DNA of 64,000 nucleotides, taken from Thauera carbonicopians. Its GTDB lineage: Bacteria; Pseudomonadota; Gammaproteobacteria; Burkholderiales; Rhodocyclaceae. The stretch spans positions 124,001 to 188,000 of the forward strand of contig NZ_JANUXN010000005.1 of the NCBI RefSeq assembly GCF_025699485.1. Direction: 5' to 3'. Below, piece after piece: positions 12,235 through 31,732 of the stretch. A program made the position numbers and the translations under genes. How positions within the stretch are numbered: position 1 is the stretch's first letter; each line of letters opens with the position of its first letter. The notes under the pieces were generated by a model. That model was not told the DNA's origin and made no database searches. It saw only the letters and a program-made list of their open reading frames with translations.

Positions 12235-12404
12235 GGGGGCGGGTGGGGATATGTGGCCCAATTTCTGGATATTCCGATCGAACTCATCGGACGACAATGC
12301 CGGCATGGTGGTTCCTCTTCATACTGGACTCACCATGCAAAAATCTGTCGGTATGCTCAATTTCTCTCAACCGCATCAGGTTGAGTCGTTTGAAGAGGGA
12401 GCAT

Positions 12405-12425
12405 AGCCTTCCCACAGGGAAGGCT
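12405..12425. terminator. Perfect hairpin between yicC and the drmB-like gene
   Basis: AGCCTTCCC (12405-12413) and GGGAAGGCT (12417-12425) make a nine-base-pair stem with a three-base loop, between two convergent genes. There is no adjoining T tract on either strand. The rest of 12235-12508 shows no gene and probably holds the left island junction. Confidence 0.45.
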
Positions 12426-12508
12426 GGGTGGAGGTAATCGGGCAAGGTAATAGATGGTATCCAGATAATGAAAATCCTGTGCGACTCGCGGCAAATAGGA
12501 TGGGCGGA

Positions 12509-14698
12509 TTAATTGACCATGTCGAGGTAGCCGCAGATGGGTGCCCCTCGCTTGTCGAGGCGCGGCATGCCGCCAATGGAACGCAGAACCGATCGTGACA
12601 GTAGCTTGTTGCCGGCAATGCAGGATGTCTCTGGCATCATTATGCAGTCAGGGCATGCTCCGCCGCGTGCCGTACAAAGTGAGCCCGTGCCGCATTGAGT
12701 GGCCTTTGAGCCCAACATCGCCGTCAACATTGCAGTACCCGTATTGCGCCAGAGCGCCGACAGGTTACCCAGGTCCATCGTGGTTCCGTTGCGATAGACC
12801 ACAAAGGCCAAATCAGCAGGGAAGATGTATTCGCCAAGCGAACCTAGGTCTAGGCCGGAATATTCGGAGACGTGCTTCATCAATAGGTGCGAATAGCTGT
12901 GGAGCAACGTATACAGGTAGAGATAGACGGGGGGTGTAGTCGTCTCGGGCAGATTGTCCAGGAATGGACTCATTGACTCTGTTGCGCCCAACAGGCCCGC
13001 GCCAATTTTCTCGCCGGCGTTCAGCGTGAACATGTCCGGGCATTTCAAACTATGCAGCCATTCGAGAACACTTTCTTCTTTGAGGCGTACGTAAATGGCC
13101 TCGTTACCCTGTTGGACAACGTACACGGGATACCGTGTGCTGTCGTTTTGCTTTACCGGTGGAAACAGATTCAGACGGACAGGCATGTCCATGCCGCGCT
13201 TGTCCCGGAGAATGGGTGTCGACTCCATTCTGGAGTAGCCGAAGCTGAAGCGACATAGATCAAACTCGCGGATGAGCCCCATGTCGTCAAGCCCCATCTT
13301 GTCGAGCAAAGTACGCGTCGCAGCCTGAACTTGCTCCGTCCTGTCCTTGTCCTCGGGCGCAAGGTCTTCGTCCAACCTGGTGAACGAGACATATGGTTTC
13401 TTGCCGTTCGTTCTGGTCTCGACGTCAAGGCGGGAACTCTTCAATGTGGCATGCTCGATAGCCAGACGGAACGGGTCGAACTTCGATGCAAACTTCGATT
13501 GCCTGTCGCGGATGTTCGATAGCACCGTTAGCGGAAGGTCCACCTTTGGCAGCAGAATCTGGCGTCGCCGAAGTTCATCTAGGACGCGTTGCTTGTGACT
13601 ATAAGCAAGGTTAATTGACCCTTTGAGGGTCGTACGTATGGGTTCTGGAAACTCCTCCAGCGTATGGATTTGTTGCACAGCCGCCAGATAGTCCGCTAAG
13701 TCTTTGGTGCACTCGGGCTTGCCCTCGCAGGCTTTTTGTACGTCTTCGTCCGCAATATCCTGAGCGGCGAATCCATACTGCTTGGCGACAAAATCTTTGA
13801 GCTCTGCCTCCCGCCCGGGTCTTAGGCAAGTCAGCAGCTGCTGACTGCCATCCTTGAAGTCGATGAATAGGTCAGATTTGACGTAGTAGGCACTCGACGC
13901 TCGATAGGGGGCTGCTTGCATGCGCACTTCGGTCAAACGGTCGGGCCCCATTGCAGTGCCAATGATCCGCAGCGTGTCGCGGTCGTTCTGCAGCCACTTC
14001 GGTGAGAGTGGCTTCTCGCAGACAGCACATTCGAAGAACCAGTCACCGATGCCAGCGGATCGTCGATTCAACTTGAACTGAGAACTGCCGCATACGCAGC
14101 TGTCGCGGTGCTTGACAGCCCGGCCTTCTCGGTTGCAATGCCATTGGCCCGGGAAGGGGGCCTCCCAGTGGCCGGACCAGTGTACGAAGATGACGTCCAG
14201 CTGCTCCCAGTCACACTTTCCCTTTGTCTTCGGATTAGGGCAGTGGGCTGAAGACAAATTTCCCAGATCCTTATCTAGCTCCTCGAGTGTTTCATAGTCT
14301 TGGAACATCCCGCAGGTCCGGCAAACGAACGCCAGAGGCGCTGGCGTGTATTCCATGTGGGATGGACGGCAAAGGTAGAAGCGATCCTGCCCGGGCAACT
14401 GAAACTCCATCTCCGTCGGGTCGAGCATGGCCCGATCCACGCACTGCGCAGGCAAGATACTTGGTTTTGTCGGGTCATTGTCGCGCACCGATGAGGCAGC
14501 GTTAAACCACGCTCTTCCGAGCTCGTTCATTCGCTCGAACAGCAAGTCCTTAGTCGATTCGGACAACTGGATGGGTTCTCCGGCCGACGAGCGGGCGATG
14601 CACGACCCCATGCCGCCCTCGAAGGTAAAGAAGCTCTCTGGTGCATAGGCTGTCGCAAGCTGGTTGCGCGAACGATTCATTGTTTTTGCTTTGGCCAT
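12509..14698 (-). CDS. DrmB-like DUF1998 protein of a DISARM-related module
   Basis: This 729-aa protein carries the DUF1998 features of DrmB, the partner of the DrmA helicase in DISARM. Zinc-ligand clusters are seen in the N-terminal third (VCRTCG, then HCPN and KCDW, then CVCGS and ECAVC). A second set near the C-terminus reads CGTGSLC, CPDC and TSC, followed by NKLLSRSVL. The central segment includes YLYTLLHSYSHLLM, a helix common in DUF1998 proteins. The start at 14698 has GGGAG nine bases upstream and lies 14 bases after the helicase stop. In DISARM, DrmA and DrmB act together on phage DNA; that function is inferred here. Confidence 0.8.
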   Translation of the reverse strand: MAKAKTMNRSRNQLATAYAPESFFTFEGGMGSCIARSSAGEPIQLSESTKDLLFERMNELGRAWFNAASSVRDNDPTKPSILPAQCVDRAMLDPTEMEFQLPGQDRFYLCRPSHMEYTPAPLAFVCRTCGMFQDYETLEELDKDLGNLSSAHCPNPKTKGKCDWEQLDVIFVHWSGHWEAPFPGQWHCNREGRAVKHRDSCVCGSSQFKLNRRSAGIGDWFFECAVCEKPLSPKWLQNDRDTLRIIGTAMGPDRLTEVRMQAAPYRASSAYYVKSDLFIDFKDGSQQLLTCLRPGREAELKDFVAKQYGFAAQDIADEDVQKACEGKPECTKDLADYLAAVQQIHTLEEFPEPIRTTLKGSINLAYSHKQRVLDELRRRQILLPKVDLPLTVLSNIRDRQSKFASKFDPFRLAIEHATLKSSRLDVETRTNGKKPYVSFTRLDEDLAPEDKDRTEQVQAATRTLLDKMGLDDMGLIREFDLCRFSFGYSRMESTPILRDKRGMDMPVRLNLFPPVKQNDSTRYPVYVVQQGNEAIYVRLKEESVLEWLHSLKCPDMFTLNAGEKIGAGLLGATESMSPFLDNLPETTTPPVYLYLYTLLHSYSHLLMKHVSEYSGLDLGSLGEYIFPADLAFVVYRNGTTMDLGNLSALWRNTGTAMLTAMLGSKATQCGTGSLCTARGGACPDCIMMPETSCIAGNKLLSRSVLRSIGGMPRLDKRGAPICGYLDMVN

Positions 14699-14712
14699 CC
14701 TGTTGTCTCCCG

Positions 14713-17700
14713 TCAGCTACGCGCTTCTGTAGCGCTATCGGTCGAATCGATATCTGCCCCTGAACCCCGGCGGATAAAAGTCATCGTACGCGCAGTCATT
14801 CCCCCTTTTACCGGCCTCGAAGCGGCGTCGATACTCGACTCACGAATGAGTCCAGGCTGGTCCACATCGCGTAGAGAGGTCATCGGCCGGAGCAGGTTGT
14901 CGCGCTCAGCGAAAAACTTCACCAGATGCGTGGCGTTGACCAGGCGGTCGATGTTCAGGTCTTGCTGGTAGTGAGTCAGCTGACGCTTGAGCAACGAGCG
15001 GTAGTGGCGCTTTCCTTCCGGTGACGGTGAGAATGGCAGTCCCAGAGCTTTCTCCATGAACGCTTCGGTCGCTTTCATATTGGCCGGCACGGCTAGGAAA
15101 TCGCGTACGTCATGAGCCATCGCGTACGTCGGGCTGTTACGTTTCTTGTTGTCGTCTACCGCGCACAATCGTTCGATGGCATTCATGCCGCAAACGTATT
15201 CCTGGAAGAAACTTGGCATCACGCGCACAAGTGCTTTTTCCGCCCAACGGTCCACCGCGGCCGGCAAAATCATCCGTTCCAGGAAGCGATGGAAGATGTC
15301 ATGAATTTCGAGCACGAACCGGTCTCGGTAGCGCTGCGGCACGGGCACCAGCAGCGAAAATCCTACGTGGGTACGGCCGACGCGTGATGAGGCTTGAATG
15401 TATTCCGCGATGTCCGATGGAATGCCGGCGAAGAACATCGCATTGAACTCCTCCACATCGACGCCATGTGAGATGGCAGATGTGGCAATGATCGACCGCA
15501 GCGTGTTGTTGAGCTCTGGGAATGGCTGCTCTGCACCAACGCGTGCCTCGGCCCTCCGGACGATGTCCTGTATGTCTGCAGCAGAGACAGCGCCCGAGAT
15601 GAGTTCAGAAATCAAGACGTGCTCGTTGTATCCCTCCGCACGATGGAGCTTCTCGAACTGCACCTTCTCGGTATCAATGACTTGGTCACCCCCCTTTTTG
15701 TTGGTGACATAGGTCAGGGCAATGCGGTGCAGGTCTACCAGGGTGAGCAAGGTCGCGGCATCTGCCTGTGTCAGCAGTCGAACGAATTGGGGCTGTAGGG
15801 GGCCAGGCGACACCCAGCGAATCAGCTCGTTGCGTGCAGCCTTTTCCTTGACCGGATCTTCGCTTCTGAGGCGTTCGTACAGGTCCGTAAGCATGAGGTG
15901 GTAGTGGCCCAGGACGGCGGCCATGGCGACGGTATGACGGTGCCCATTGGTCAGGACAGAGCCGTAGACCCGCGCCCAGTGACTCCGCAACTCGACATCG
16001 CTGACGGACATGGCGGCACGCTCGGTATCGTCTGGCATGTCGTCCGGTTGCATGGGGGTTGCATAGAAGGAATCGTAGAGTGTCGGCCCCGGGTGGGGGA
16101 ACTGAACCGTGTTATCGCGCTGATAGAGGTGGCACATTTGCCGTTGCGGCTCGGTGACCGTGGCCGAGGCGGCAATGACCTTGATTTTCCGGCGCACCGT
16201 CGAATCGGGTTCGTACGATAGGCAACCCTTCAACAACGGAGCAAGGTGGTCGAAAGCAGCGTCCAGCGCAGATTCGAACAGGCCGGAGAATGTGCCCAGA
16301 GACTCATCCAGAAGGTGCGCCTCATCCTGAATCAGCAGGGCAGGGAATGGGTCAAAGAATCGTTTTTCTCCGGATGAAAATGCCGGAAACAATGCCCGCG
16401 AGCTAGCACCGGGGTGCCCATCCCACTCTCTCGACTTCATCGGCACCAACAGGCGTTCGCTGCCGGTTTCAACCAGCGGCGCGAAGCCGAACATGCCGAA
16501 GAACTTGCGGATGGTGCCTTGCGACTGGCCGATGGCAGCCAGCTTATCGACCGTGCCCAGTAACACGGATGGAGCCAAATCGTAGATGTCCTCGTCCACG
16601 ATGTAAAAAGGCAGAGGGGTCGGCTTGATGAAGCGCGCGTTCCAAGAGCACTGCTCCTTGGGAGCGGAGCAGTAGTGGCCCATCGCATTGGCACCATTGC
16701 CGGAATGGCGACGTAGTGCGAGCAGGCTGCCGTCCTTGTTCCCGCAGAATGGGCAGGAGGAAAGCTTCAACCAGCGCTCACGGGCGCTTTTGTAGGGCTG
16801 GAGGTCCTTGTATTTGGGTTCGGTGCTGGGGAGAACCTCGTCGTCACGTGGCACTTCGTTGTAGCCGTCTGCGGAATGCCAGTTGGGGGTGTTGCTGCCC
16901 CCTACCCAGAATCCGAGTGAGAACGGCTCGCCCGGATGTTGACGCGCATGCCGTACCTCTTCGGCGGCACCCATGGTGGCGAAAGTTCGACGGGCTTGCT
17001 GCAGCGTGAGCAGGCGCAGCGGATAGCGCATCAACGCCGACACGCCCCTATGTTTGCCACGCAGTCGGTCGAGAAAGAGCACGAACACAAGCAGGCCAAG
17101 GAAGGCTTCAGACTTTCCGCCGCCGGTTGAGAAGTACAGCAGTGTGACGGCGTTGGCATGCTTGGCAACGTCGGCTGTATAGAAGTCGTGAAACTTGGGG
17201 ATGCGCGTTGCGAATGCCGGGATGGAAGCCAGGATGAATGCGAGCTGGAAAAGGCGCCATTCGTCGTACCCCTTCGACCTGGCAACCTTGGACATGGCGG
17301 TGTTCATCGACACCCATGCCTCGAACGGAATGCCCAGCGGCGATTTTTGGATGCCCGGGCCGCTCCAGTGCGCACGCGACTTTTCAAGGATGGCCAAGCC
17401 GCAACGGATCGCACCCAGCTCCCTGCGCCAAGCTATGAGGTCCTCATGCAGCTTGTCGTGCTCCGCCGCCAATTGCTCGGCTGCGTTAGGCCCATCGAGC
17501 CCTTGGCCGACCGGGTGCTGCTCAACTTGGGTCAGCCAGGCTTCATATGCCGCGATGAGGGGTTGGAGACCGGCCAGGCAGTCGGGCTGGGCCAGCTTCT
17601 CTATCCTACGTTCGACCGCCCCATCGGTTGGGATGATTCGCGGCAATACGTAGCGTGGAGCCCACGTCGTCGTGAGGCGATGCAGCGCGTCGTTCTTCGT

Positions 17701-18909
17701 GAGCGTAATGCCACCATTGAAACCGAGCGCTGGATATTTAAGGTATTGGTTGTATCGGTACGATGGTTTGACGCGATCTAGATGGAGAAACAGATGGTCA
17801 ATCGCCGGCAAGGTCACAGATATAGAGAGCTGAAAGAGTGCGGGCTCCAATTCTCTGAAGTTGTCTTTTGTGAGCGGTGATGTCCAGTTCTCAAGCGCCA
17901 CATGCACGGTGAGGCGAGTCGCGTCAACCGGGTCAGGCACTGCTTGAACGACCCACCGCAGATCGAGTTTCGGAATCACGATGGGAAGGCTGGAAGTCCG
18001 AACCGCTTCAAGATAGCGCTGCCAGTCGCGTACGTTGGACGGACGTACCCGCACACGGCGGTAGCCCCATTGCTTTCCACCGAAGTTGGGGTCGGTGCTG
18101 GCAACCCAATCTGAAAGCTGTTTGGCGATGGCTTCGTTCAGAGCGTGGCTTGCCTTTTTCGCATCAGCCTCCGCCGTTGCCGGCGTAAATTCGAACGCAG
18201 GCAGCGTCAGTTCGAGCCGGAGCCATTTCGGCGGAGGCGGGATATCGTCCGCGAGGGCATCGGGTGTGACGGGGCCGACGGCGATCTCCTGGGCGGGGCG
18301 GACCTCGCCTTCCACACCGTCTTCGTCTTCCTCCCCAGCCGTTGCTTCAGTTTCTTCGCTGGGTGGTGTCCGGTCCAGGCGGTTGTCGAAGGGTAGTCCC
18401 ATGGACTCGTACACACCCTTTCGGGCCTCGTAACTCTGCGCAGCCCATTCCGGATTTGACTTGCCGCCTGGCAGCGTCGCCTCGAGCGTCGTCAGAGCGT
18501 TCTTGACTCTACTACGGATTTCAGTGCGTGCCTCTTTGGTCAATGGGAAGGTGGGCTCAAGACGGCCACCAGGCTTCATGTCGTCCTCGTTCGGGAGAAT
18601 CCGTACGTAGACGGCGCCGGTCAGAGACACACTCAGATTCGTATTCGTCGCGGCCGAGCGAAGCTGAAAGTCCATACCGTGCGCACTGATACGAATCGGG
18701 TCGGCTTCCTCATCCCCGCTACGCTCTTCGGCAGGCATCGGCACGATGAATTCCGACATCAGCGTAGCACTTGGTTTTGCGCCGTAAATGACTTTGTAAA
18801 AGTCGCCTCGGCCAGCGAGCCGTGCCGACAGCCCATTCAGCAAACTGTCTACAACGGCCTCCTTGTAGGCAGGATGGATGTTGCGCGGGTTCTCACTGAG
18901 AATGGGCAC
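14713..18909 (-). CDS. DrmA-like DEAH superfamily 2 helicase
   Basis: This is a ~1398-aa helicase. Motifs in order: Walker A in FSTGGGKSEAFLGL (about residue 595), DEAH in LIQDEAHLLDE (about 860), SATVTEPQRQ as motif III, and the C-terminal AEYIQASSRVGR as motif VI (about 1170). A zinc-knuckle pattern (CPFCGN, then HYCSAPKEQCSW) lies between the first two motifs. This arrangement, with a long non-catalytic N-terminus, resembles DrmA of DISARM. I start it at the GTG at 18909 (AGGGGA upstream). The 55 extra codons read from 19074 are low-complexity antisense-like sequence over the upstream gene's end. It overlaps that gene by 17 bases. Confidence 0.82.
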   Translation of the reverse strand: MPILSENPRNIHPAYKEAVVDSLLNGLSARLAGRGDFYKVIYGAKPSATLMSEFIVPMPAEERSGDEEADPIRISAHGMDFQLRSAATNTNLSVSLTGAVYVRILPNEDDMKPGGRLEPTFPLTKEARTEIRSRVKNALTTLEATLPGGKSNPEWAAQSYEARKGVYESMGLPFDNRLDRTPPSEETEATAGEEDEDGVEGEVRPAQEIAVGPVTPDALADDIPPPPKWLRLELTLPAFEFTPATAEADAKKASHALNEAIAKQLSDWVASTDPNFGGKQWGYRRVRVRPSNVRDWQRYLEAVRTSSLPIVIPKLDLRWVVQAVPDPVDATRLTVHVALENWTSPLTKDNFRELEPALFQLSISVTLPAIDHLFLHLDRVKPSYRYNQYLKYPALGFNGGITLTKNDALHRLTTTWAPRYVLPRIIPTDGAVERRIEKLAQPDCLAGLQPLIAAYEAWLTQVEQHPVGQGLDGPNAAEQLAAEHDKLHEDLIAWRRELGAIRCGLAILEKSRAHWSGPGIQKSPLGIPFEAWVSMNTAMSKVARSKGYDEWRLFQLAFILASIPAFATRIPKFHDFYTADVAKHANAVTLLYFSTGGGKSEAFLGLLVFVLFLDRLRGKHRGVSALMRYPLRLLTLQQARRTFATMGAAEEVRHARQHPGEPFSLGFWVGGSNTPNWHSADGYNEVPRDDEVLPSTEPKYKDLQPYKSARERWLKLSSCPFCGNKDGSLLALRRHSGNGANAMGHYCSAPKEQCSWNARFIKPTPLPFYIVDEDIYDLAPSVLLGTVDKLAAIGQSQGTIRKFFGMFGFAPLVETGSERLLVPMKSREWDGHPGASSRALFPAFSSGEKRFFDPFPALLIQDEAHLLDESLGTFSGLFESALDAAFDHLAPLLKGCLSYEPDSTVRRKIKVIAASATVTEPQRQMCHLYQRDNTVQFPHPGPTLYDSFYATPMQPDDMPDDTERAAMSVSDVELRSHWARVYGSVLTNGHRHTVAMAAVLGHYHLMLTDLYERLRSEDPVKEKAARNELIRWVSPGPLQPQFVRLLTQADAATLLTLVDLHRIALTYVTNKKGGDQVIDTEKVQFEKLHRAEGYNEHVLISELISGAVSAADIQDIVRRAEARVGAEQPFPELNNTLRSIIATSAISHGVDVEEFNAMFFAGIPSDIAEYIQASSRVGRTHVGFSLLVPVPQRYRDRFVLEIHDIFHRFLERMILPAAVDRWAEKALVRVMPSFFQEYVCGMNAIERLCAVDDNKKRNSPTYAMAHDVRDFLAVPANMKATEAFMEKALGLPFSPSPEGKRHYRSLLKRQLTHYQQDLNIDRLVNATHLVKFFAERDNLLRPMTSLRDVDQPGLIRESSIDAASRPVKGGMTARTMTFIRRGSGADIDSTDSATEARS

Positions 18910-21661
18910 TTGGCTTCCCCTTCTTGCTTGTCTCCGTACGCGGAGGTACAACGCGTTCGACACGGTAAACGCAGCACAACGCCTCCTGCTGGAGGTGCTG
19001 GATGATCGCCTGAGGTAGCTTGCGGTAGATTGCTGCGCTCTCAGGCTGGAATAGGATTTCGGCGTAACGGGCAACCAACTCCCGTCCTAGGTATTGATTT
19101 AGACGCCGTGCGTTTCGGACGAAGCCCCAATGCTGCTCGGCGGCTTCGTCGCTAATGTCCAGGGCTTTGCAGAACACCTTGAAATACTTCGCATCCTTCG
19201 AGGCGTGCGGCTTGGTGTCGTCCTTCGCTTGCAAGGCCAGCCAGTAGTACACACGGCCTGGTCGACAGTTCGTCGCTTGAGGGTCAATGTCGACCATTCT
19301 TGCGTGGATTTCCCGCGCCAACGCGGACCGCTTCGTGGCCTTGAACATCATCGCGCAACGTCTTTGCACGTCATCGTGGTACAGCTTGAGCAGCATGCGC
19401 ACGGGGTGTGCGACTGAGCTTATGCCTTCGTCGTTCAGTTGTAGTGACGACTCCAGCTTGGCACGCAGTTCGTCGCTCATGTCAAAGATGAAATCGCCTG
19501 GGTGAATGGCGCTGGCAGCAGTGCGCCTGAAAGGAGGGTCTTCATCTGGCACGTGGCGGTAGACCCATCCTGAGGCGTACATCAGTCCGTCACCCTCCAG
19601 TTCGAACTTGTAGTACGTTTGCTCGCCACCTTGGCCGTTGTTCCCGTACTCATCGAACTTGAACGTCATCGGTATTTCGCGCAATTTTCCGATAACGATG
19701 GGGTTCGGGACTTCAGCCAATCGTCGTCCGAGCTCTTGGGCCAACAACCCGATACGTCCTCGGTACGCTTTGAACGCTCCGACCTCTTTCATGCCAGTCA
19801 ATGTCTGAAGGGCGGATTCGGCTTGTCGATACGCAACCAGGATCGCAGTACCGTGTGGCACGTCTGGGTGCGTGACCAGAATACGAAGCACATCCGGGTT
19901 CATTCCGACGAATGCAAAATGCTTGCCTTTGCGTTCGTCGGGGAGCGTCTTGGCCACAGTCGAAAGCGTATGCCATTCAAGGCGTGCCTCGGCAGTGGGC
20001 CAGTCGTTCGCCAAATTGCGCTGGAGGAAGCGAAGGGCCAATAACACGTACTTGTTGCTGGGTAGCACTAGCGAGATGCCATGACGCCCAGTCAAAGCAT
20101 GCTTCCTGACTTCGGCCAGCATACGGGCTGCCATTGGGGTTGCATTATTCCAGTCGTCGAGGAGTTTTTCGGCGCGCTCAATCGTCTGCTCAACCGATGT
20201 GCGAACTTCGTTCAAGGCACCAGAGGCCAGTGCCTCACGGAGCGCCTCTTTTATTGGTATCCAGGCGTTCTGGTGACTGCCATAGTCGCCGGCCTCAGCC
20301 TCAGCTGAGACCGCGGTCAAATCTCTATACCCTGCTGGCATGTTGGACAGTCGCAGGATATACATGCACGCTTGGAACAGCGCTTTGTGTGCTGGAGTGT
20401 CTTCACCGCGGGCTTTGGTGGTCAGCCGTTGGAATGCCAAGGCGAGCTGAGACGCATCCCGGTCGACAATGCTGACACTGAAATTGGCGTTGCTGCGCTG
20501 GGCCGGCTCCCAATTCGAAGGTACAGGATGTGCTGAGAGTAAAGAGCCGTCGGCTTCGGCGGCCCACACCTTTGTCGAGAAGGTCGGATTGAAGCCATGA
20601 AACTGCTTTCGCAGGATGAAGAAGGTCTTGGGATCGTCGGTGACGACGACTGCCCCGGTATCGGCGAAACCGTTTTCGCGTGCGAACAACAAGAAATCAA
20701 GGATGCGTCTGACTGCAGAGTCGTCCGTGTGCAACGCGGCATGGGTGGCGTCGAGTAGTAGAACTTCCGGTCGCCCCTCCGCCTTCAGGGCTGGCGCAGC
20801 AAGGGCGGTTCGCCACATGTCTTTTTTGGCGGTGTGATGCACGACCATCAGTGCCCCTGGTGCCTTGTCGGGGATACTCCATTCCAAGCTGACCTGCTGA
20901 CGCAAATCACGCCGACTTGCAAGTCGCTCGACCTTGGACAAGGTTCGTTCGAGAGGATTGGCTACCAATGTTCCCCAGGTTCGTTTGGCTGGATCGAAGA
21001 CAAATGCGGGAACCAGTTCTGCGAGCGATGGATTGGGCAGCTCTGGGGAATGCAGACTAACGTCATTAAGCCCCCCAAGAGCGGCCAGAAATGCTGGTGA
21101 GGATGTGCAGGTCTCCGGTTCGGTTGAGCCATGCTCCTTTTGTACCCATAGCTGCCGATACAGCTCGCTGAGCGCTTGACGGTCCGCGAGCACGCTGTGC
21201 AGCGGTGCGCGGCATGCATGGTTGCCTGGGTACAGCAGAGTACGCAGTCCTCGCAGATCCTTGGCAAAGACACGCTCAACATTGGCTAAGGCATGCAGGA
21301 GCGGCAACGACGTCAGCTTAGCCGGCCAGACCAGGCAAAGGGTAACGCCGCCCTCGTCCGCCGCTGCCAGAAGCGTGCTCACGAGCCCATTCGTCCAAGG
21401 CTGCGGCGCGATAGATTCGTTCCCCGTCCTTGCTTGGTAGGTCAGATGTGCGCTTCCAGCGCGGACCTGTGCCCAGGGACGTTGTATGCGTAATGCAGAA
21501 GCCGGAGGAGTGGGCGAGGTGGATGCCTGTACGCTGGGCTTTCGTACTTGGTGCTTGGAACCAATGGGCTTGGCTGTGATCTTGCGCGCTAGTTCACCGC
21601 GCTTTTTCCGGGCTTTTTCTCGATCGGCTAGGCGCTCGGCCAGTGGCTTAAATTCAGGCAT
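18893..21661 (-). CDS. Large DrmE-like protein of the DISARM-related module
   Basis: This is a 922-aa protein I cannot name with certainty. It has a basic N-terminal tail (REKARKKRGELARK) and a helicase-like middle with a degenerate Walker-B-like strand (VLLLDATHAAL, then GAVVVTDDPKTFFILRK). A C-terminal region contains HPGDFIFDMSDELRAKLE, a pattern I associate with DrmE of class 2 DISARM. No intact Walker A was found. ATG 21661 was preferred over the TTG at 21694, which abuts the methyltransferase stop. It lies between the methyltransferase and helicase genes, overlapping the latter, so it is a structural member of the same operon. Alternative: a distinct, undescribed accessory subunit. Confidence 0.6.
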   Translation of the reverse strand: MPEFKPLAERLADREKARKKRGELARKITAKPIGSKHQVRKPSVQASTSPTPPASALRIQRPWAQVRAGSAHLTYQARTGNESIAPQPWTNGLVSTLLAAADEGGVTLCLVWPAKLTSLPLLHALANVERVFAKDLRGLRTLLYPGNHACRAPLHSVLADRQALSELYRQLWVQKEHGSTEPETCTSSPAFLAALGGLNDVSLHSPELPNPSLAELVPAFVFDPAKRTWGTLVANPLERTLSKVERLASRRDLRQQVSLEWSIPDKAPGALMVVHHTAKKDMWRTALAAPALKAEGRPEVLLLDATHAALHTDDSAVRRILDFLLFARENGFADTGAVVVTDDPKTFFILRKQFHGFNPTFSTKVWAAEADGSLLSAHPVPSNWEPAQRSNANFSVSIVDRDASQLALAFQRLTTKARGEDTPAHKALFQACMYILRLSNMPAGYRDLTAVSAEAEAGDYGSHQNAWIPIKEALREALASGALNEVRTSVEQTIERAEKLLDDWNNATPMAARMLAEVRKHALTGRHGISLVLPSNKYVLLALRFLQRNLANDWPTAEARLEWHTLSTVAKTLPDERKGKHFAFVGMNPDVLRILVTHPDVPHGTAILVAYRQAESALQTLTGMKEVGAFKAYRGRIGLLAQELGRRLAEVPNPIVIGKLREIPMTFKFDEYGNNGQGGEQTYYKFELEGDGLMYASGWVYRHVPDEDPPFRRTAASAIHPGDFIFDMSDELRAKLESSLQLNDEGISSVAHPVRMLLKLYHDDVQRRCAMMFKATKRSALAREIHARMVDIDPQATNCRPGRVYYWLALQAKDDTKPHASKDAKYFKVFCKALDISDEAAEQHWGFVRNARRLNQYLGRELVARYAEILFQPESAAIYRKLPQAIIQHLQQEALCCVYRVERVVPPRTETSKKGKPSAHSQ

Positions 21662-21694
21662 TAGAGATAATCCGAACTGACTCGCGTTGCCCAA

Positions 21695-23440
21695 TCAGCA
21701 CTGGACAACGAGCCCGAAGGCTTCGTGCACCGCCGCATCCATTGAGTCGCTATTGGCTATGGCCTCCTTAAGCAACCGCGGGTTTGGCAGCGCGAGTTGA
21801 TTGAGCTCGAACGCCGAAACGTTGGTAGCGCCGGAAATACATCGGAAGCAGCGGTCGATGAGGTGTGTGCTCAGAAGTGCGGCTAATTCTTCGGGTGGCA
21901 ACGCCGGTTTATCGCTTTTCTGCTCGAGGATGACTACATGGTTCTCGCCGATAAAGCCACCATAAGTCGAGAAAACGCCTGGTGACACCGCGGCGGCCAC
22001 CAGACGGCGGGGCTGGTCATTCGACGTCACACGCTGTATCACCACGCACGGCGACCTAACGACCGATGAGTGCGTCTTGTGGCCCGGGTCCACAAAGCGA
22101 TGTTCGCCGTGATTGGTAGAGGTGTCTTCAAGTCGCACGACGCCACCGGCCGTGATGTCCCGTGACCAGAGTAGAGGCATAGCTGTGTGTGCATTGGCCT
22201 GTTTCGCATCTTGAAGCGACTCGAATTTAGGGCGCTTGTCGCGATTCCAGACATATGCGCCTATGCGCACCTTGTAGCCATAATCAGAGAGACGGAACGC
22301 AGAGCGCATGGTGGCCTTGAGGAGCCTTACATCCGCGATGGCACGTGGAATAGACCACACAGCGCCGGAGTTTGGCAGCAGGCATTCACCCACGCTCTGA
22401 TACTGGCCCGTGCCAGACACTACAGAGACGGCGGCTTGTACCTGCGCGCGCTCCTCTTCGATACGCCGGCGCAGGACGGTCAATGCCGTTTCTTGTTCTA
22501 CGTCGATGAATACGCCCTGCCGGTCGCTGACCATGCCGATGTGTTCGACATCGGTATTACGCATGAGGAACTTGCGCAGCTGGCCGAAGTACAGACCGGA
22601 CAAAAAACTGGTCGGTGTGACCAACGCAGCACGCCCGCCTGTGCGCAGCAAGCGTACGCACAGGGCAATGAACAGGCAGTAGAGGTTTGGCTGAGCTTCG
22701 ATAACCTCCGCATAGGCGTCGCGCAATGGCAGCAGCTCCTCGGCCGTCATCTTGCGATACGGTGGATTGCAGACGACAACATCGACGGTGCTCAGATTGG
22801 TGGCGAACCGGATCAATGAGTTCGCCTGATAGACTTTAAACGTCGGGACGTAGCCGGTCTTCCGGATTTCACTATGCAGCGCCATGCGCAGGAAATGCTT
22901 GGACATCTCGCAAAGCGTCTTGTCCAACTCGGTACCGTGGAGGTGCTGCTCAATGTGTTTAAGCCGCCGGCGTGGCCTGACGCCCTTCGCCACCAGCGCT
23001 TCTCGCATGCGTAGTGCAATCGGGACCAAGAAGGCGGCGCCACCGCAGGCCGGATCCATGAAGGACTGGCGTCCAAAGTCAACGCCTTGCTGGGCTAGAT
23101 CATCGAGTAGTCCATCGGTCAACGACGCCGGCGTGAAGAACATCGCCAACTGCTTCCGATAGCTTTCCTCGACCAATACCGCGTATGAGGAGCTGAGCCA
23201 ATATGTGGCTTCAAGGAGGCTCAGCTGATGCAGTACAGCCACGAACGCTTCCAGCTCCGGCTCAGCAGCAAGCGCCTTAGAATAGGGCAGGGACGGCTCT
23301 GGCAGTGCAGGAAATGCGGTCTTGCACCACATGCGCAACACCGTCCCAACAAGCGTTGGCACATCGCTGTCACAACGCTTGGCTGCCAAGCCGAGTGCTT
23401 TGATATGTCGTGTGATGAGCAGCTTCGACGGCGGCAGCAT
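21695..23440 (-). CDS. N6-adenine DNA methyltransferase of the DISARM-related module
   Basis: This ~581-aa gamma-type adenine methyltransferase has a helical N-terminus with FFTPASLTDGLLDDL, SAM motif I DPACGGAAFL (about residue 126), and the catalytic NPPY in VVCNPPYRK (about 223). A C-terminal target-recognition-like region (about 320-570) follows. Start 23440 has GGAGG eight bases upstream; ATG 23458 lies six codons earlier without a good Shine-Dalgarno. It is the first gene of a four-gene minus-strand operon and presumably marks host DNA as self. It is shorter than BREX PglX and lacks a fused nuclease or helicase. Confidence 0.88.
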   Translation of the reverse strand: MLPPSKLLITRHIKALGLAAKRCDSDVPTLVGTVLRMWCKTAFPALPEPSLPYSKALAAEPELEAFVAVLHQLSLLEATYWLSSSYAVLVEESYRKQLAMFFTPASLTDGLLDDLAQQGVDFGRQSFMDPACGGAAFLVPIALRMREALVAKGVRPRRRLKHIEQHLHGTELDKTLCEMSKHFLRMALHSEIRKTGYVPTFKVYQANSLIRFATNLSTVDVVVCNPPYRKMTAEELLPLRDAYAEVIEAQPNLYCLFIALCVRLLRTGGRAALVTPTSFLSGLYFGQLRKFLMRNTDVEHIGMVSDRQGVFIDVEQETALTVLRRRIEEERAQVQAAVSVVSGTGQYQSVGECLLPNSGAVWSIPRAIADVRLLKATMRSAFRLSDYGYKVRIGAYVWNRDKRPKFESLQDAKQANAHTAMPLLWSRDITAGGVVRLEDTSTNHGEHRFVDPGHKTHSSVVRSPCVVIQRVTSNDQPRRLVAAAVSPGVFSTYGGFIGENHVVILEQKSDKPALPPEELAALLSTHLIDRCFRCISGATNVSAFELNQLALPNPRLLKEAIANSDSMDAAVHEAFGLVVQC

Positions 23441-23944
23441 CAAGCGAGCCTCCGACATCGGCCTAGCGTGGCAGCTTCATCTACTCCCGACTCTTCGATC
23501 ATCCCCCTCCCCTAAACCTGCGTTTGTCTTGGCGACTTCTTCCGCACCTGCAAGACCGGCAGAGCCGGACATAGTGGTACCGCCGAGGCCCTACGCCGCT
23601 GCCTCCCCTTGGTTTCGTGATGCGTGCACCTGATGGCCACGGACCAACGTCGCTCTATCTGCCCTGCGGGATGTACCGCCGGTTGCTGGGCTGCTCTACA
23701 CCCGCCATGCCTTCATGGGGTGGAAGGCTGTTGTTGCTATGGTGAGGGATTTTACCGTGCAGCAGATGCTAACGAAATAGCCAGAAGCCGTGGCTTGGCG
23801 TTGTACCTTGTCGAAACCGGGCATCTCGTTGTGCGAAGATACAAGCGGGATTTTGGCTACCGCGGTCGTTTGCCTGTGGTGTGGATGCCGTAGTAGCCTG
23901 TCATGCAGCGTTCGCAGCGAAACCTCGAAAGGGAGGACAATCTC
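23441..23944. other. Divergent intergenic region between the methyltransferase and Argonaute genes
   Basis: About 500 bases separate two divergent defence operons and must hold both promoters; I could not identify convincing -35/-10 pairs. A plus-strand frame ends at 23893 with ~47 codons of protein-like composition (FYRAADANEIARSRGL onward), but it has no good start and no recognised family. GGGAGG at 23931-23936 is the ribosome binding site for the Argonaute gene. Confidence 0.4.
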
Positions 23945-26900
23945 TTGGTTGTACATCAGTTGACTGTCGATGCCCTCGTGCGCTCGATTGGTGTGGCACG
24001 AGACAGGCCGTTGTTGGTCTTCCTTGGTGCCGGCGCTTCAATGAGTTCAGGCATGCCGTCGGCGGACCAATGTCTTTGGGAGTGGAAGCGGAGCATCTTC
24101 CTGACCAATAACCCAGGCTTAGAGGCTCAGTTCAGCGAACTGTCACTGCCTTCAGTCAGACACCGCATCCAAGCCTGGTTGGATAGCAGGCGCAAGTACC
24201 CACCAGAAGGGAGCCCCGAGGAGTATTCGGTCTATATCGAGGAATGCTTCGCCCGTAGCGACGACAGGCGTATGTACTTTGAGCGATGGGTCAAGCAGTC
24301 CAGCCCTTACCTGGGATACCAGCTCCTTGCAGAACTCGCCCGTCAAGGGATGATTGCTTCCGTCTGGACTACTAACTTTGATGGGCTCGCAGCCCGTGCA
24401 GCCGTGGCGGCGGGAATAACGGTGACGGAGATTGGCATTGATTGCCAGCAACGTCTGTACCGCAATCCCGGAGAAGGCGAGATGCAGTGTATCTCACTGC
24501 ATGGGGACTATCGCTACGATGCCTTAAAGAACACGCGTCGCGAACTTGAAGAACAAGAAACGGAATTGCGTAAAGTGCTGCTGGAAAAGCTGCGCACCCA
24601 TCCCGTCCTGGTATGTGGATACAGCGGTCGGGATCGAAGCGTCATGCAGGTCTTCTATGATGCATATCGAGAGAGCGCTGGCAAGAACCCCCTCTATTGG
24701 GCCCAGTATGGCGACTCAGACCCTCCTTCCGAAGTACGGCGCCTGATTTCAGCCAACGAAGGTACGGAGCCTTTCGGGTATCACATCCCAAATGTCGTCT
24801 TTGATGATCTCATGCGGCGCTTGGTGCTTCATGTAACTTCGCAGGAAGACCGGGAGCGTATCGAGTTAACCCTCAGCCGTTTCAAGGCTGACCCGGTAAG
24901 CCAGCGTACCGCCTTTTCATTGCCGTCACTGCCAGTGACGGGGTTGGTGAAAAGCAATGCATTCCCGATGGTTCCGCCCCGAGAGATTATTGAGTTCGAT
25001 CTCTTGGAGTGGCCTGCTCCAGGTACCGTCTGGTCAACATTGCGTGAAATTGGCGACCGCCACGGCTTTGTGGCCGCCCCGTTCAGAGGGAAGGTGTACG
25101 CCATGGCAACTATCGACCAGCTGAAAGCAGCGTTCGGTGCGAACGTTAACGGTACGTTCAACCGCGTTGCCATTAGCGATGAGGATCTGCGCTATGAAGA
25201 TGGCACGGGTAATCAGCTCATGCGGCGTGCGGTAGTCATCTCGTTGTCACGCGCGGAAGGATGCCGGTCTGATCTCGACTCGCTCATCTGGGACGCCAAC
25301 GCGTATAAGCAAGAAAAACTCGACGAGCGCTTATGGCAGGTTCATCAAGCAGTGATTCTGCAAGCCAAGACGCTAGCCGACGGCCTGGCACTTGTAATGA
25401 AACCAACGCTCTTTGTTTCCGATCGTCAGGGGAATGCCGCTCCGATCGAGGTAGAACGCGCACTAAAAGTCAAGGTTCTGGGATACCAACACAACAAGGA
25501 GTTCAACGAAGCCCTTGAGATGTGGCGAAATCGCCTTTTACCGCACCGGGATGTACAGGTCCGCTTCCCAGACGTGGAAAATGGCATCACGTTCTCGATC
25601 TCGTCCTGGCCACTCTTTGCTCGAATCACGGATGAGCGCTCTGGAACAGTCAAGCTGACGGATAGCCAAGAGCGTGCCGCACCTCAGGTGGGCTTGCAGC
25701 TCTCCGAACCGAAACTCACCTTTGCGAGCTCAACGGGAGCTGGTCTTGCAGAAGACACCCACCCAGTCCGCGGTCTGCTGCAAAACCGCCCGTTCGATGC
25801 TTTGCTGACAGAGGCGGGTATCTCCACGAAGCTACGGGTGGCGATTATTGCGCCGGCGAAGGACGCGAGGAGAGTGCACCAATATTTATCTCAATTGCAC
25901 GGTGCCGTCGATCCGACGAAATACGACTCGGACTACTTGCTATCATTCCCTGGCTTCAGCGCCGCCTTCAAATGTTCCCTGGAGATTGCTGAGCCCGGCC
26001 AACGATCATTCGTTGAGCTTGTAGAGCCTACGGAGGATTCACCGTCCGCATGCCGAATGCTTGGTGTACGAATCGCTTCTGCGCTATCTTCGCTGAAAGC
26101 CGCGGAGAGCCCGAGTGTCACCTTTATCTATATTCCGACACGCTGGCACGGCCTGCGCGGATATGAGTTGGAAAACGAGCGATTCGATCTGCACGACTTC
26201 GTCAAATCGTCCGCAATTCCCCTCGGTTGCTCAACGCAGTTTCTGGAAGAAGATACCCTAAACAACTTGCAACAGTGTCGCGTGCGTTGGTGGTTGTCTC
26301 TTGCAATATACGCCAAAGGAATGCGTACTCCATGGGCCTTGAAAGAGCTGGACAAGGATTCGGCATATGTCGGAATTGGCTTCAGTCTTCGTCCCAAGGG
26401 TGAAGGTCCAGGGCACGTCGTACTGGGGTGCAGCCATCTCTACAGTCCCAGCGGTCACGGGCTGCAGTTCCGTCTGAGCAAGATCGAAGAACCGATCATG
26501 CGCAGGAAGAATGCCTTCATGAGCTTCGAAGATGCTAGACGCCTTGGTGAAGGCATTCGGGAGCTGTTTTTCAATGCACACCTTCGTCTACCCAGACGCA
26601 TTGTTGTTCATAAGCAAACGCCGTTTCTCAAGGCTGAGAGAGAAGGGCTACAAGCAGGACTTCAAGGCGTAGATTGCGTAGAGCTTCTTCAGATCTACGT
26701 CGACGACACGCTCAGATATCTAGCCTCTCGACCCAATAAGGGAGGTGGTTTCGGGATCGACAATTTCCCCATCCGACGGGGCACCACGATTGTGGTCGAT
26801 GATCAAACGGCGTTGCTTTGGGTTCACGGAGCGTCAACCGCACTCAATCCTAAATTGACATACTATCAAGGCAAGAGGCGTATTCCAGCGCCACTCGTAC

Positions 26901-27097
26901 TGGTTCGCCATGCGGGAACGAGTGAACTCATGCAGCTGGCGGACGAAGTACTCGGCTTGTCGAAGATGAACTTCAACAGCTTTGATCTCTACGGCCAGCT
27001 ACCCGCAACGATCGAAACCTCCAGGCGTGTAGCCGCAATTGGCGCGCTATTGGATCGATATAGCGATCGCTCCTACGATTACCGTCTATTCATGTAA
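23945..27097 (+). CDS. Single-chain Sir2-APAZ-PIWI short Argonaute
   Basis: This is a ~1050-aa fusion. The N-terminal SIR2 domain shows FLGAGAS, TTNFDG with the catalytic Asn-Asp region, LHGDYRYD with the catalytic His, and VCGYSGRD (about residues 28-230). An APAZ-like region follows, then MID/PIWI domains with FIYIPTRWHG and the C-terminal LYGQLPATIETSRRVAAIG. The PIWI catalytic acid is replaced (AYVGIGFSL), as in short Argonautes that do not cleave. Related proteins (GsSir2/Ago, CcSir2-Ago) use guide RNA to sense invading DNA and then deplete NAD+ and kill the cell. Start: TTG at 23945, with GGGAGG eight bases upstream; ATG 23903 is possible but lacks a Shine-Dalgarno. The gene starts a plus-strand defence run. 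Confidence 0.88.
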   Translation: MVVHQLTVDALVRSIGVARDRPLLVFLGAGASMSSGMPSADQCLWEWKRSIFLTNNPGLEAQFSELSLPSVRHRIQAWLDSRRKYPPEGSPEEYSVYIEECFARSDDRRMYFERWVKQSSPYLGYQLLAELARQGMIASVWTTNFDGLAARAAVAAGITVTEIGIDCQQRLYRNPGEGEMQCISLHGDYRYDALKNTRRELEEQETELRKVLLEKLRTHPVLVCGYSGRDRSVMQVFYDAYRESAGKNPLYWAQYGDSDPPSEVRRLISANEGTEPFGYHIPNVVFDDLMRRLVLHVTSQEDRERIELTLSRFKADPVSQRTAFSLPSLPVTGLVKSNAFPMVPPREIIEFDLLEWPAPGTVWSTLREIGDRHGFVAAPFRGKVYAMATIDQLKAAFGANVNGTFNRVAISDEDLRYEDGTGNQLMRRAVVISLSRAEGCRSDLDSLIWDANAYKQEKLDERLWQVHQAVILQAKTLADGLALVMKPTLFVSDRQGNAAPIEVERALKVKVLGYQHNKEFNEALEMWRNRLLPHRDVQVRFPDVENGITFSISSWPLFARITDERSGTVKLTDSQERAAPQVGLQLSEPKLTFASSTGAGLAEDTHPVRGLLQNRPFDALLTEAGISTKLRVAIIAPAKDARRVHQYLSQLHGAVDPTKYDSDYLLSFPGFSAAFKCSLEIAEPGQRSFVELVEPTEDSPSACRMLGVRIASALSSLKAAESPSVTFIYIPTRWHGLRGYELENERFDLHDFVKSSAIPLGCSTQFLEEDTLNNLQQCRVRWWLSLAIYAKGMRTPWALKELDKDSAYVGIGFSLRPKGEGPGHVVLGCSHLYSPSGHGLQFRLSKIEEPIMRRKNAFMSFEDARRLGEGIRELFFNAHLRLPRRIVVHKQTPFLKAEREGLQAGLQGVDCVELLQIYVDDTLRYLASRPNKGGGFGIDNFPIRRGTTIVVDDQTALLWVHGASTALNPKLTYYQGKRRIPAPLVLVRHAGTSELMQLADEVLGLSKMNFNSFDLYGQLPATIETSRRVAAIGALLDRYSDRSYDYRLFM

Positions 27098-27235
27098 GTA
27101 CGCTGAGGATGGTAGGCTGCGCGGTCTTGATCGATTGTTGCAGTCGCGTTGGCTGGTGCCGGCGCATGCCGCCTACCTGCAATACCACCGTGCCCGGTTT
27201 ACGAGCGCGCCGAACGTTGATTCTGAGGGTAGTAA

Positions 27236-28159
27236 ATGAAGTTCTGGGTTGGCGTAACCGACAACGCCTGGTTCAGTTTTCTGAGCCAGTCGGCCCCTGA
27301 TGAAGTCAACTTCTGGCAACCTCGGGGTGCCACCACCTACGCCGGCTTGACGCCGGGCACGCCTTTCCTGTTCAAGCTCAAGCGCCCCTACCACCATATC
27401 GTGGGAGGCGGCTATTTCGTGAAGTCGACTTCGCTGCCGCTGTCCATCGCCTGGGAAGCGTTCGGACACAAGAACGGCGCAGCGCAACGCAGCGTCTTCG
27501 AGAAGATGATCCGCAGCCTACTCGCCGATCCGGCAGCGAGAGATCCGGAGATCGGCTGCACCGTACTCGCCCAGCCGTTCTTCTGGCCGCGCGAGGCCTG
27601 GATACCCGACCCGATCGACTTTTCCGCCAACATCGTTCGGGGACGCTACTATGACACGGCCGAACCCGCCGGTGAGCACCTCTGGGCCGAGGTGCAGGCG
27701 AGAGTCACGGCACAACCCAGCGAACCGCCCGGGGTCAGTGAGCCTGTATCGCTGCAGCGCTATGGGGCACCCGTACCGATCCGACCCAGGTTGGGACAAG
27801 GCGCTTTCCGGGTGCTGGTCACCGATGCCTACCAGCGGCGCTGCGCACTGACCGGCGAATCCACCTTACCCGTGCTGGAGGCAGCGCACATCCAGCCCTA
27901 TGCGGAAAGTGGCCCGCATGATCCCGCCAACGGGTTGCTGCTGCGCTCCGACTTTCACAAGTTGTTCGACATCGGCCTGGTGACCATCACTCCGGATTAC
28001 CACATTGAGGTCAGCCCGCGTATCCGCGAGGAGTGGTTCAATGGCAAGGCCTACTATCGCCTGCATGGTCAGCCACTGCTCCGGCTGCCGGAACATCCGG
28101 ATCAGCGCCCTGGCGCGGCCTACCTGCGCTGGCACAACGAGAATCGTTATGTTGGTTAG
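27236..28159 (+). CDS. PUA-like/HNH endonuclease, probable modification-dependent restriction enzyme
   Basis: This 307-aa protein has two parts. Residues 1-110 (WVGVTDNAWFSFL, FLFKLKRPYHHIVGGGYF) look like a PUA/EVE-like fold of the kind that reads modified bases. The C-terminal half is an HNH_2-type nuclease: CALTGE, LEAAHIQPYAE, NGLLLRSDFHKLFD and HIEVSP. The closest described architecture would be a type IV, modification-dependent restriction enzyme; the substrate is inferred. It has its own start 138 bases after the Argonaute gene. Confidence 0.8.
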   Translation: MKFWVGVTDNAWFSFLSQSAPDEVNFWQPRGATTYAGLTPGTPFLFKLKRPYHHIVGGGYFVKSTSLPLSIAWEAFGHKNGAAQRSVFEKMIRSLLADPAARDPEIGCTVLAQPFFWPREAWIPDPIDFSANIVRGRYYDTAEPAGEHLWAEVQARVTAQPSEPPGVSEPVSLQRYGAPVPIRPRLGQGAFRVLVTDAYQRRCALTGESTLPVLEAAHIQPYAESGPHDPANGLLLRSDFHKLFDIGLVTITPDYHIEVSPRIREEWFNGKAYYRLHGQPLLRLPEHPDQRPGAAYLRWHNENRYVG

Positions 28160-28260
28160 GGGGCGAGCAGAGGAGGATCATCCCGGGATCCGATGTGAGA
28201 ATGTCGGTGGGGCAGCATTACGATGTCAGTCCGACGGGTAGCGGGGACGAAGGAGGGGTA

Positions 28261-29747
28261 GTGGAGGACAGGAATGTCGACAAACCGAACCTGGACGGGT
28301 TGTCCGACGCGGACGCGCTCAACACCATCGGAAGGCTGGTCGACCAAGCGTCCGATACCGACAATCTGATTCTCGTTGCCCACGCGCTCGATCTCGCAGA
28401 CCAACTGGAAGCGCGTGGTTTGGGGGGGAGGCGCGGGCCCTGCTCGACTATTTCCGTGCCAACGCATGGGCATGCCGGTATCAACGACGCTATCGCGAAC
28501 GCGAGGACTTGTGGAACTTCGAGCAGCTCGAGATCCAACAACAGATATTTCTGCTGCGCCGTGCGGCGCATGGTTCCGGGTTCGCCGCAATGGAGCCGGT
28601 CCGGCGCTGCCAGATACTGACCAACCTCGGCAACCAGTTTGATGCGTTAGGCCGCTTCGTCGAGGCGCGTGCCTGCTGGAGCGCCGCCTTGGCCATCGAC
28701 CCTCGGTTCTGGATGGCCAAGGCGAATCGGGGCCGCGGGCTTATGTACTACGCTGCGGCGCTGTACGATCCGGGCCATGAAGGCGTGTTCGCCTATCACG
28801 CCTACCGAGACCTTGCCAAAGCGGTGGAACTGATCAATCTTCTTCCGCACTTGGGCGACCCTGGGGTGCAGAGGGCCTTTGTGCAGGCCGCTAAGCAGAT
28901 TGCGCAGCATTACGATCTGGAGGCCATCGGTCAGTCGTACCGGCCTGATGCCTGGTCATTGGGCGAGAGCCCGACAGAACAGGCCTACCGTCGCTGGTGC
29001 CTGAAGCACACGCTGTTTCTCAATCCGTTGAATGACGTCGATCCGGTGCCGATCGCCGCACAGGATGTTTTGAGCCTACCGGATTTCACCTTGCCGGCGG
29101 GTAAGCCGCCGATCGTGACTGGCATGTTCAATGAACTCAAACAGTTGTTCGTCTCGGCACGATGGCTGTTGTGGGAAGGAACCCATGCGGAAGAAGCCCA
29201 CTTTTCGGACCGAGAGGTGCTGCTGTTCAACACGTTGGACTATCCGTCTTACGGGCTCTCGCTTGAAAAAGTAAAAATGGCCTTTAGACTGGGTTACTCG
29301 CTTTTTGACAAAATCGCCTACTTCCTTAATTTCTACCTTGGCTTAGGCGTTGCCGAACACCAAGTGAGCTTCAGAACGATCTGGCGCGAGAAGAAAGGTG
29401 GGCCGTTGCGGGTGCTCGTCGCCAACTCAGAAAACTGGCCGCTTCGCGGCTTGTACTGGCTGAGTAAGGATCTTTTTGAGAAAGAGGTAAAGGACACGAC
29501 AGAGCCGGAGGCGCGTGCCTTGGCTGAACTTCGCAACCACCTTGAACACAAGTACGTGAAGGTATGCGAGATGTCGGTGCCTCTACGCGGCAAGGACCAT
29601 CCGTTCCACGACACTTTGGCCTACTACGTCACTCGATTGGAGCTGGAGCAGAAGACGTTGCGGCTCCTGCAACTGGTTCGGTCGGCACTCGTATACCTGT
29701 CGCTGGCCAGGAGGAGCGCAGACGGGCCAGGGGCAAGAAGGGGCTGA
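28261..29747 (+). pseudogene. TPR-HEPN (LA2681-type) protein, interrupted by a G-tract frameshift
   Basis: The first part reads from a GTG at 28261 (AGGAGG four bases upstream) through NTIGRLVDQASD to LEARGLGG. At a run of seven Gs (about 28422-28428) the frame breaks. The continuation in the other frame reads ALLDYFRANAWACRYQRR and then LWNFEQLEIQQQI to the stop at 29747. One extra G would restore a single ~495-aa protein. A TPR-like region (ILTNLGNQFDALGRFVEA) and a C-terminal HEPN domain with LRNHLEHKY (R-x4-H ribonuclease motif) follow, matching the LA2681 family. It may be a pseudogene, phase-variable, or a sequencing error. If only the downstream frame is used, a 412-aa product from 28509 is possible. 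Confidence 0.7.
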
Positions 29748-29781
29748 GCGCACCTATGTCACTCAATATCTGGCGTGACGA

Positions 29782-30999: not shown

Positions 31000-31101
31000 C
31001 GGCGATGCGCGTTTTGACGTGAGTGCCTACAGCCTAGTGGTGGGTGCTTTTGGCCGATATTATGTGGCGAGGCGGAGGAAGCTCAACCGAGTTTACCGAA
31101 C

Positions 31102-31263
31102 TCAAAGCGGCAACTCAGACGTCAGCCTGATCTGCTGCATCGGGATGTCCGTCTTGACGCTTTGCACTCCCTTGATCCGCGTGAGGTGGTCGACCTGGAA
31201 TTTCCGATAGGCGTTGAGGTCGGCGGCTACGATGCGGAGCAGGTCAGGCGGTCCAAAATATTG
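31102..31263 (-). pseudogene. Remnant of an Lrp/AsnC-family regulator (C-terminus)
   Basis: On the minus strand 53 codons read PPDLLRIVAADLNAYRKF, then DHLTRIKGVQSVKTDIP, and end TSELPL before a TGA at 31102. This is the typical Lrp/AsnC effector-domain C-terminus. The DNA-binding N-terminus is missing: the frame degenerates upstream of 31263. It is a decayed fragment with no expected function. Confidence 0.7.
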
Positions 31264-31367
31264 ACGGCCACGGGGGCTTTGGAGTCTTTTTCGCGCTTGG
31301 CCCCATCGTAGCGGGCAAAGTTACTGCTAGTGGGTGCGCGTCCGACTGTCCGGAATCTATTGAACCC

Positions 31368-31708: not shown

Positions 31709-31732
31709 GGCATTCTCCGGTTGAATCAGACT

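Follow-up and report, generated by a model that had tools for sequence, protein, structure and literature searches.

Introduction

The PADLOC rule, as printed in PMC9252829, recognizes DISARM by DrmA, DrmB and DrmC accompanied either by DrmD and DrmMI or by DrmE and DrmMII. In a survey of the helicase family (PMC12458937), separate helicase and DUF1998 genes are the state given for DISARM, a methyltransferase is also assigned to ARMADA, and many uncharacterised DISARM-like classes are mentioned; DISARM-like operons bearing ShdA occur in Pseudomonas (PMC10270631). Here we analyze a 64,000-nt stretch of the Thauera carbonicopians genome (contig NZ_JANUXN010000005.1, positions 124,001 to 188,000; hereafter the window), in which an earlier note, made from the sequence alone, had pointed out a DISARM-like module of four genes: an adenine methyltransferase, a DrmE-like protein, a DrmA-like helicase and a DrmB-like protein. 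The module is a single minus-strand operon at window 12509-23458. It probably encodes a DISARM-type anti-phage system, acting by the mechanism proposed below; its branch has no name and is akin to class 2 DISARM, the type that bears DrmE.

Gene content of the operon

The open reading frames (ORFs) bear out the order given in the note. From the 5' end of the operon the genes are:

21695..23458, minus strand: MT, N6-adenine DNA methyltransferase, TaqI/Alw26-like (587 aa; ORF and family models)
18893..21661, minus strand: E, divergent DrmE-type protein (922 aa; start set by comparison with relatives)
14713..18909, minus strand: DrmA, SF2 helicase (1398 aa, GTG start; model and PDB matches)
12509..14698, minus strand: DrmB, DUF1998-type protein (729 aa; conserved C-terminal cysteines)

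The longest frames of E and DrmA are 18893..21694 (933 aa) and 14713..19074 (1453 aa), respectively; comparison with seven close relatives indicates 21661 and the GTG at 18909 as the probable starts, in agreement with the 922 residues previously attributed to E. With these starts, E and DrmA overlap by 17 nt. This is the sole overlap in the operon, and the description of the genes as overlapping is correct only there, since MT and E are 33 nt apart and DrmA and DrmB 14 nt apart.

Window DrmA matches the PADLOC DrmA model at E=1.6e-85 and NF038325 at E=3.2e-104, yet with 350 bits against a cut-off of 950. A four-row profile built on it finds the DrmA of PDB entry 7s9v (chain A) at E=2e-65. The motifs GGGKS, QDEAH, SAT and QASSRVGR are present, and by these signs the protein is a DrmA-type YprA helicase with its helicase motifs, as found in the DISARM core. 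The identification of DrmB also stands, though it is weaker and made chiefly through the C-terminal part. The PADLOC DrmB model matches at E=2.4e-16 and NF038324 at 45.5 bits (cut-off 240), while the match to PDB DrmB (7s9v_B), 6.5e-4 with the single sequence and 2.1e-9 with a 30-row profile, is confined to residues 593-705. Cysteines C669, C675, C682, C685 and C693 are kept in at least 95% of 77 relatives. The second element of the DISARM core, a separate DUF1998 protein with zinc-type cysteines, thus lies beside DrmA.

The best model for MT is the PADLOC type II methyltransferase PDLC03338 (E=9.8e-184); it also matches Pfam N6_Mtase (1.1e-16), Eco57I (1.5e-13) and, under the cut-off, the Alw26 family TIGR02987 (5e-18). 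Its closest solved structures, retrieved from PDB with a 27-row profile, are adenine methyltransferases (E=4.8e-27), and it carries the motifs DPACGGAAF and NPPY. MT can therefore be assigned by homology to the N6-adenine type, as the note had it, and hence is not the cytosine methyltransferase DrmMII. Its catalytic and C-terminal halves are similarly conserved among 17 close loci, giving no sign of motif switching. In three loci (L017, L020 and L022) MT is 38-42% identical to its window counterpart and DrmA 67-71%, a gap that may reflect exchange of methyltransferases within the branch.

A recurring branch of related operons

Related loci (L numbers) were the best 80 of 332 relatives found by scanning a genome collection with a DrmA alignment. 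Gene presence was scored with profiles grown on these 80 loci, fragments counting as present and the near-identical pairs L009/L024 and L045/L048 each counting twice. As the loci were picked by DrmA similarity, the fractions given here describe the branch and not DISARM as a whole.

E is present in 74/74, MT in 73/73 and DrmB in 79/79 assessable loci. All four genes occur jointly in 71 of the 80 loci, which excludes chance co-location. E directly precedes DrmA in 72 of 74 loci; MT lies before the DrmA-DrmB block in 66 and after it in seven of 73. Judging from record titles the branch is mostly proteobacterial. Of 398 genomes drawn evenly from the phylum, 13 have a DrmA match at 1e-20; in four of these, the window genome included, the match extends along most of the protein with an identity of at least 46%. 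Among 24 other genomes of the genus, one gives a partial DrmA match at 38% identity and 23 give none. Thirteen of 16 close relatives compared are 59-87% identical to the window operon gene by gene. Scanning viral contigs with the DrmA alignment yielded no relative, and phage records held no DrmA match at 1e-20.

In a FastTree phylogeny of 96 DrmA proteins, the 83 branch members form one clade with full local support. Six references having a protein at the E position (two Haloplanus, Haladaptatus, Streptomyces, Rubrobacter and Allocoleopsis) join the branch under a fully supported node; two class 1 rows and the remaining references fall apart from it. Since long branches meet, deep placements in this tree are provisional.

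E as a probable remote relative of DrmE

Neither PADLOC nor NCBIfam places E in a family at 0.1, and Pfam gives a single row, under its cut-off; five E relatives have no PADLOC match at E 1. The DrmE model DrmE_fam (cut-off 80 bits) found nothing in 150 genomes of the phylum and DrmE references were therefore taken from plasmid records. A tblastn search with haloarchaeal DrmE matched its own record only. Eleven plasmid proteins encoded at the E position were compared with DrmE_fam: two exceed the cut-off (L092 with 130 bits, L100 with 104), five match below it at 24-67 bits (L093, L095, L097, L099 and L146), and the remaining four (L091, L096, L144 and L145) give no match.

Profiles were compared by hhalign. 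A3 is a 66-sequence E profile; A5 contains eight E-position plasmid proteins, A6 three haloarchaeal proteins (two of which pass the DrmE_fam cut-off) and A10 five E-position proteins including one from Lactiplantibacillus. A3 aligns with A5 at a probability of 98.1 (E 8e-14), with A6 at 95.2 (E 2.7e-8) and with A10 at 90.3 (E 1.5e-6), while the controls gave 0.1 (A3 against DrmA), 0.5 (A3 against DrmB) and 0.3 (A5 against MT). By profile-profile comparison only, we take E to be a remote DrmE homologue. The DrmE-like label of the earlier note is thus upheld at the profile level, at probabilities of 90-98%, and not at the level of E itself, which no DrmE model matches. In a separate PDB comparison, positions ~664-742 of the E profile weakly matched an intein structure (E=0.028); this stretch is also common to DrmE-type proteins.

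An AlphaFold2 model of E, built from 64 sequences, has a pLDDT of 87 and a pTM of 0.81. Foldseek aligned it with 25 PDB chains at E <= 0.001, all of them helicases of the RIG-I/MDA5/LGP2/Dicer/FANCM kind. A Walker A motif is missing from the P-loop position in all 74 E proteins, the one motif-like match (in L084) lying elsewhere. At the Walker B position the Asp is kept in 57 of 74 proteins, and the position after it, occupied by Glu in active helicases, holds Ala or Leu in 69 of 74. Together, the Foldseek matches and the Walker A and B changes make it plausible, though not established, that E is a helicase-like pseudo-enzyme without Walker A. This suggestion is tentative, and it is weakened by the N-terminal domain, which, modeled alone (pLDDT 92), had no PDB match at E <= 0.001; above that threshold its top rows were VirB4 and then mostly helicases. 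Moreover, the helicase matches of whole E (E 5e-6) have TM values of just 0.19-0.31.

Other observations weigh against placing the operon within DISARM and E with DrmE. Both DrmA and DrmB score far under the NCBIfam cut-offs. No DrmMI or DrmMII model appears for MT among the best 25 of 51 PADLOC rows, MT also weakly matches BREX PglX (3e-8), and no DrmE model of PADLOC or NCBIfam matches any window protein. The A3 match to DrmE-type proteins is limited to ~400 of the 922 residues and falls in the second half of E (~480 to 880). Its significance depends on the alignments, because single E-position proteins gave probabilities of only 63, 20, 1.4 and 0.2, and only two sequences in the DrmE-type alignments pass the DrmE_fam cut-off. 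The DrmA phylogeny is a FastTree with long reference branches, in which Haliscomenobacter, another E-position reference, falls elsewhere. Finally, what the data show directly is gene content, motifs, homology and the recurrent lack of DrmC; the anti-phage function is inferred.

Comparison with described systems

With the matches of DrmA and DrmB, the DISARM reading holds on sequence criteria. Under the PADLOC rule as printed in PMC9252829, however, the operon and its branch would count as neither DISARM type. The branch resembles class 2 in the DrmA-DrmB core, in the E-type protein directly before DrmA and in DrmC being last where present. In contrast to class 2, its methyltransferase is of the adenine and not the cytosine type, E is too diverged for DrmE models and DrmA forms a clade of its own; in addition, the window operon is devoid of the DrmC that the rule, in the same text, requires. 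With class 1 the operon shares adenine methylation chemistry and the DrmA-DrmB core, but it lacks DrmD, its DrmA lies outside the class 1 rows, and MT measures 587 aa whereas the methyltransferases beside DrmD measure ~1533 aa (L088) and ~1365 aa (L094).

Druantia and ARMADA have in common with the operon a YprA-type helicase and a DUF1998 part, which here are separate genes. The window helicase matches the DruE model at 7e-6 and DrmA at 1.6e-85. Had the helicase and DUF1998 proteins belonged to Druantia or BREX, this would have told against the note's proposal; the similarities detected, to DruE, BrxH (0.0035) and PglX, are only weak and place the operon in neither, the genome not having been searched for PglZ.

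By these comparisons, the branch is distinguished by the pairing of a short adenine methyltransferase, TaqI/Alw26-like, with a divergent DrmE-type protein. In the open literature, searched mostly without full texts, we found no description of a DISARM class combining these two proteins; the branch recurs and is apparently unnamed. The proposal of an undescribed variant is partly supported, the absence of DrmC not being what defines it. The models missed E in the window and five relatives (PADLOC-DB 2.0.0) and in the window and one relative (NCBIfam 20.0); since, in addition, the operon fits neither type of the printed rule, many such operons may stay unlabelled. The gene order recurs in a class-2-like operon on a Lactiplantibacillus plasmid (L144), which encodes a cytosine methyltransferase, an 801-aa protein, a DrmA-like helicase and a DUF1998 protein; no DrmC is annotated after this operon, and the 801-aa protein is without NCBIfam match at 0.1.

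Distribution of DrmC

Both DrmC and DrmD had been noted as missing, and both absences are confirmed. No similarity to DrmC is found within 2.5 kb past window DrmB. Five PLD matches to the DrmC model NF038319 in the genome reach at most 49.5 bits (cut-off 133), and when the DrmC of a relative is compared with the genome, the best match (E 3e-8) belongs to a frame of 551 aa. No ORF in the operon corresponds to DrmD, genome matches being limited to 40 bits (cut-off 610).

As a mark of the variant, however, the missing DrmC does not hold up. A DrmC-type PLD gene is carried by 56 of the 73 relatives that could be assessed (loci holding DrmC, or having at least 700 nt past DrmB), including the four tree rows nearest the window (L013, L008, L010 and L015). 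Conversely, the presence of DrmC in all close relatives, which the note would have taken as contrary evidence, is not observed: 17 of the 73 have none, close relatives L012, L018 and L009 among them. The smallest well-supported set around the window in the tree has five members: L013 and L014, with DrmC, and L012, L018 and the window, without. Among the 56, the match in L031 reaches no more than 28 bits, the gene of L042 is interrupted, and the HxKx4D motif is missing from L014, L031, L036 and L039. With L031, L036 and L042 scored as absent, DrmC presence changes at least 15 times on the DrmA tree, over which its absence is scattered. No constant substitute recurs after DrmB in the 17 DrmC-less loci. 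These data portray the window operon as a DrmC-less member of a coherent branch, of which DrmC absence is not the defining mark. PMC9142583 describes DrmC as dispensable in tested DISARM and often missing; on that account its loss is no novelty and does not prove the operon inactive.

Loss of DrmC might be the first step in the decay of a DISARM copy that is already inactive. Several loci have core genes split over two ORFs (DrmA in L018; E in L043, L058 and L073; MT in L044 and L078; DrmB in L064), which, like the interrupted DrmC of L042, speaks for decay, although some of these cases could stem from errors in sequencing or assembly. We regard this explanation as unlikely for the window, where all four ORFs are full length with motifs retained; furthermore, the identity to close relatives given above extends to every gene, and DrmC-less copies are spread over many branches.

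Proposed mechanism

In the anti-phage role that we favour, a host motif would be methylated at adenine by MT, presumably as a self mark. By analogy with DrmAB of another DISARM, DrmA and DrmB would together make up the helicase complex, loading onto phage DNA that is unmodified and has exposed ends, and then translocating. E, which resembles a helicase but has no ATPase motifs, would assist recognition or assembly as a non-catalytic partner. Most members of the branch carry the PLD nuclease DrmC; the window copy, lacking it, would either block phage DNA or use another nuclease of the cell.

A bolder view, which we put forward with some reserve and consider possible rather than probable, is that the branch, found in dozens of genomes, is a third DISARM class. 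E would then show that DrmE is a helicase paralogue which lost ATP binding and serves as scaffold or sensor beside DrmA and DrmB, and DrmC would be an accessory, dropped in many lineages with defence kept. This branch allows direct tests of what DrmE does and of whether DrmC is needed, because close natural operons exist with DrmC (L013, L008, L010, L015) and without (window, L012, L018).

Genomic setting and neighbouring genes

The operon lies next to yicC in a low-GC block (GC 0.55-0.59 over 12240 to 31300, against 0.67-0.70 around it) together with defence-like genes:

12237..31907, no strand: low-GC block with the operon and defence-like neighbours (from GC content; left end at yicC)
23903..27097, plus strand: SIR2-prokaryotic Argonaute fusion, 1064 aa (PADLOC pAgo PDLC02384, 1246.8 bits; Pfam SIR2_2, 2e-14)
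27236..28159, plus strand: HNH endonuclease, relative of phosphorothioate-dependent restriction enzymes (Pfam HNH_2, 7e-13; NF045808, E=2.5e-19, under the cut-off)
28509..29747, plus strand: TPR-type protein with LA2681-like HEPN domain (Pfam, 2.5e-72)
29782..30999, plus strand: 405-aa AAA-like protein (AAA/ABC ATPase matches under Pfam cut-offs)

In five of eight congeners yicC directly precedes gmk and window 12237-40935 is absent, so compared with them the window has this segment as extra sequence. At the yicC-gmk junction, which is variable in the genus, the remaining three differ in sequence. The right end of the block is uncertain. It is suggested only by the rise in GC after ~31.3 kb, and by 150 bases of a congener (L120), ~80 bases from its yicC, that are 76% like window 31908-32045; a high-GC efflux operon occupies 32.1-38.2 kb. 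No flanking direct repeats of 18 nt or more occur in window 11000-33000. In L025, which also carries this operon, an integrase separates DrmB from a yicC gene; for Shewanella and others, yicC has been described as a site of islands (PMC12016545).

The effector in place of DrmC could be a trans-acting nuclease of the island, for instance the HNH protein encoded at 27236. The HNH gene is 3.8 kb from the operon start in the same low-GC block, and two DrmC-less loci (L012 and L021) have adjoining ABC-three-component CTD7 genes with a weak Cap4-nuclease match. Such a substitution seems quite improbable, however, as the HNH gene runs on the other strand and is separated from the operon by another gene, its profile matches the window alone among the loci searched (flanks of up to 10 kb), and genes after DrmB vary among DrmC-less loci. 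Still harder to credit is a single composite system uniting the operon with the SIR2-Argonaute fusion. The two are divergent neighbours 444 nt apart, and in L018 a SIR2-Argonaute relative, in two ORFs, sits just upstream of MT; but a clear copy is found in L018 alone of the 80 loci (the end of locus L081 holds a 71-bit piece, and the 31-bit match in L084 is weak), and PADLOC treats SIR2-pAgo as a separate family. Given this single clear co-occurrence, the SIR2-Argonaute, HNH, HEPN and AAA-like neighbours are treated as independent of the operon.

The LA2681-like HEPN protein is possibly an RNase-type defence gene, and the N-terminus of the 405-aa protein looks HNH-like, as judged by eye only. 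Genes of the DUF3732 ATPase type adjoin the operon in L009 and L012. Plasmid relatives of the SIR2-Argonaute fusion occur in Sagittula and a Paracoccaceae bacterium (71% coverage, ~32% identity), each match overlying two annotated features.

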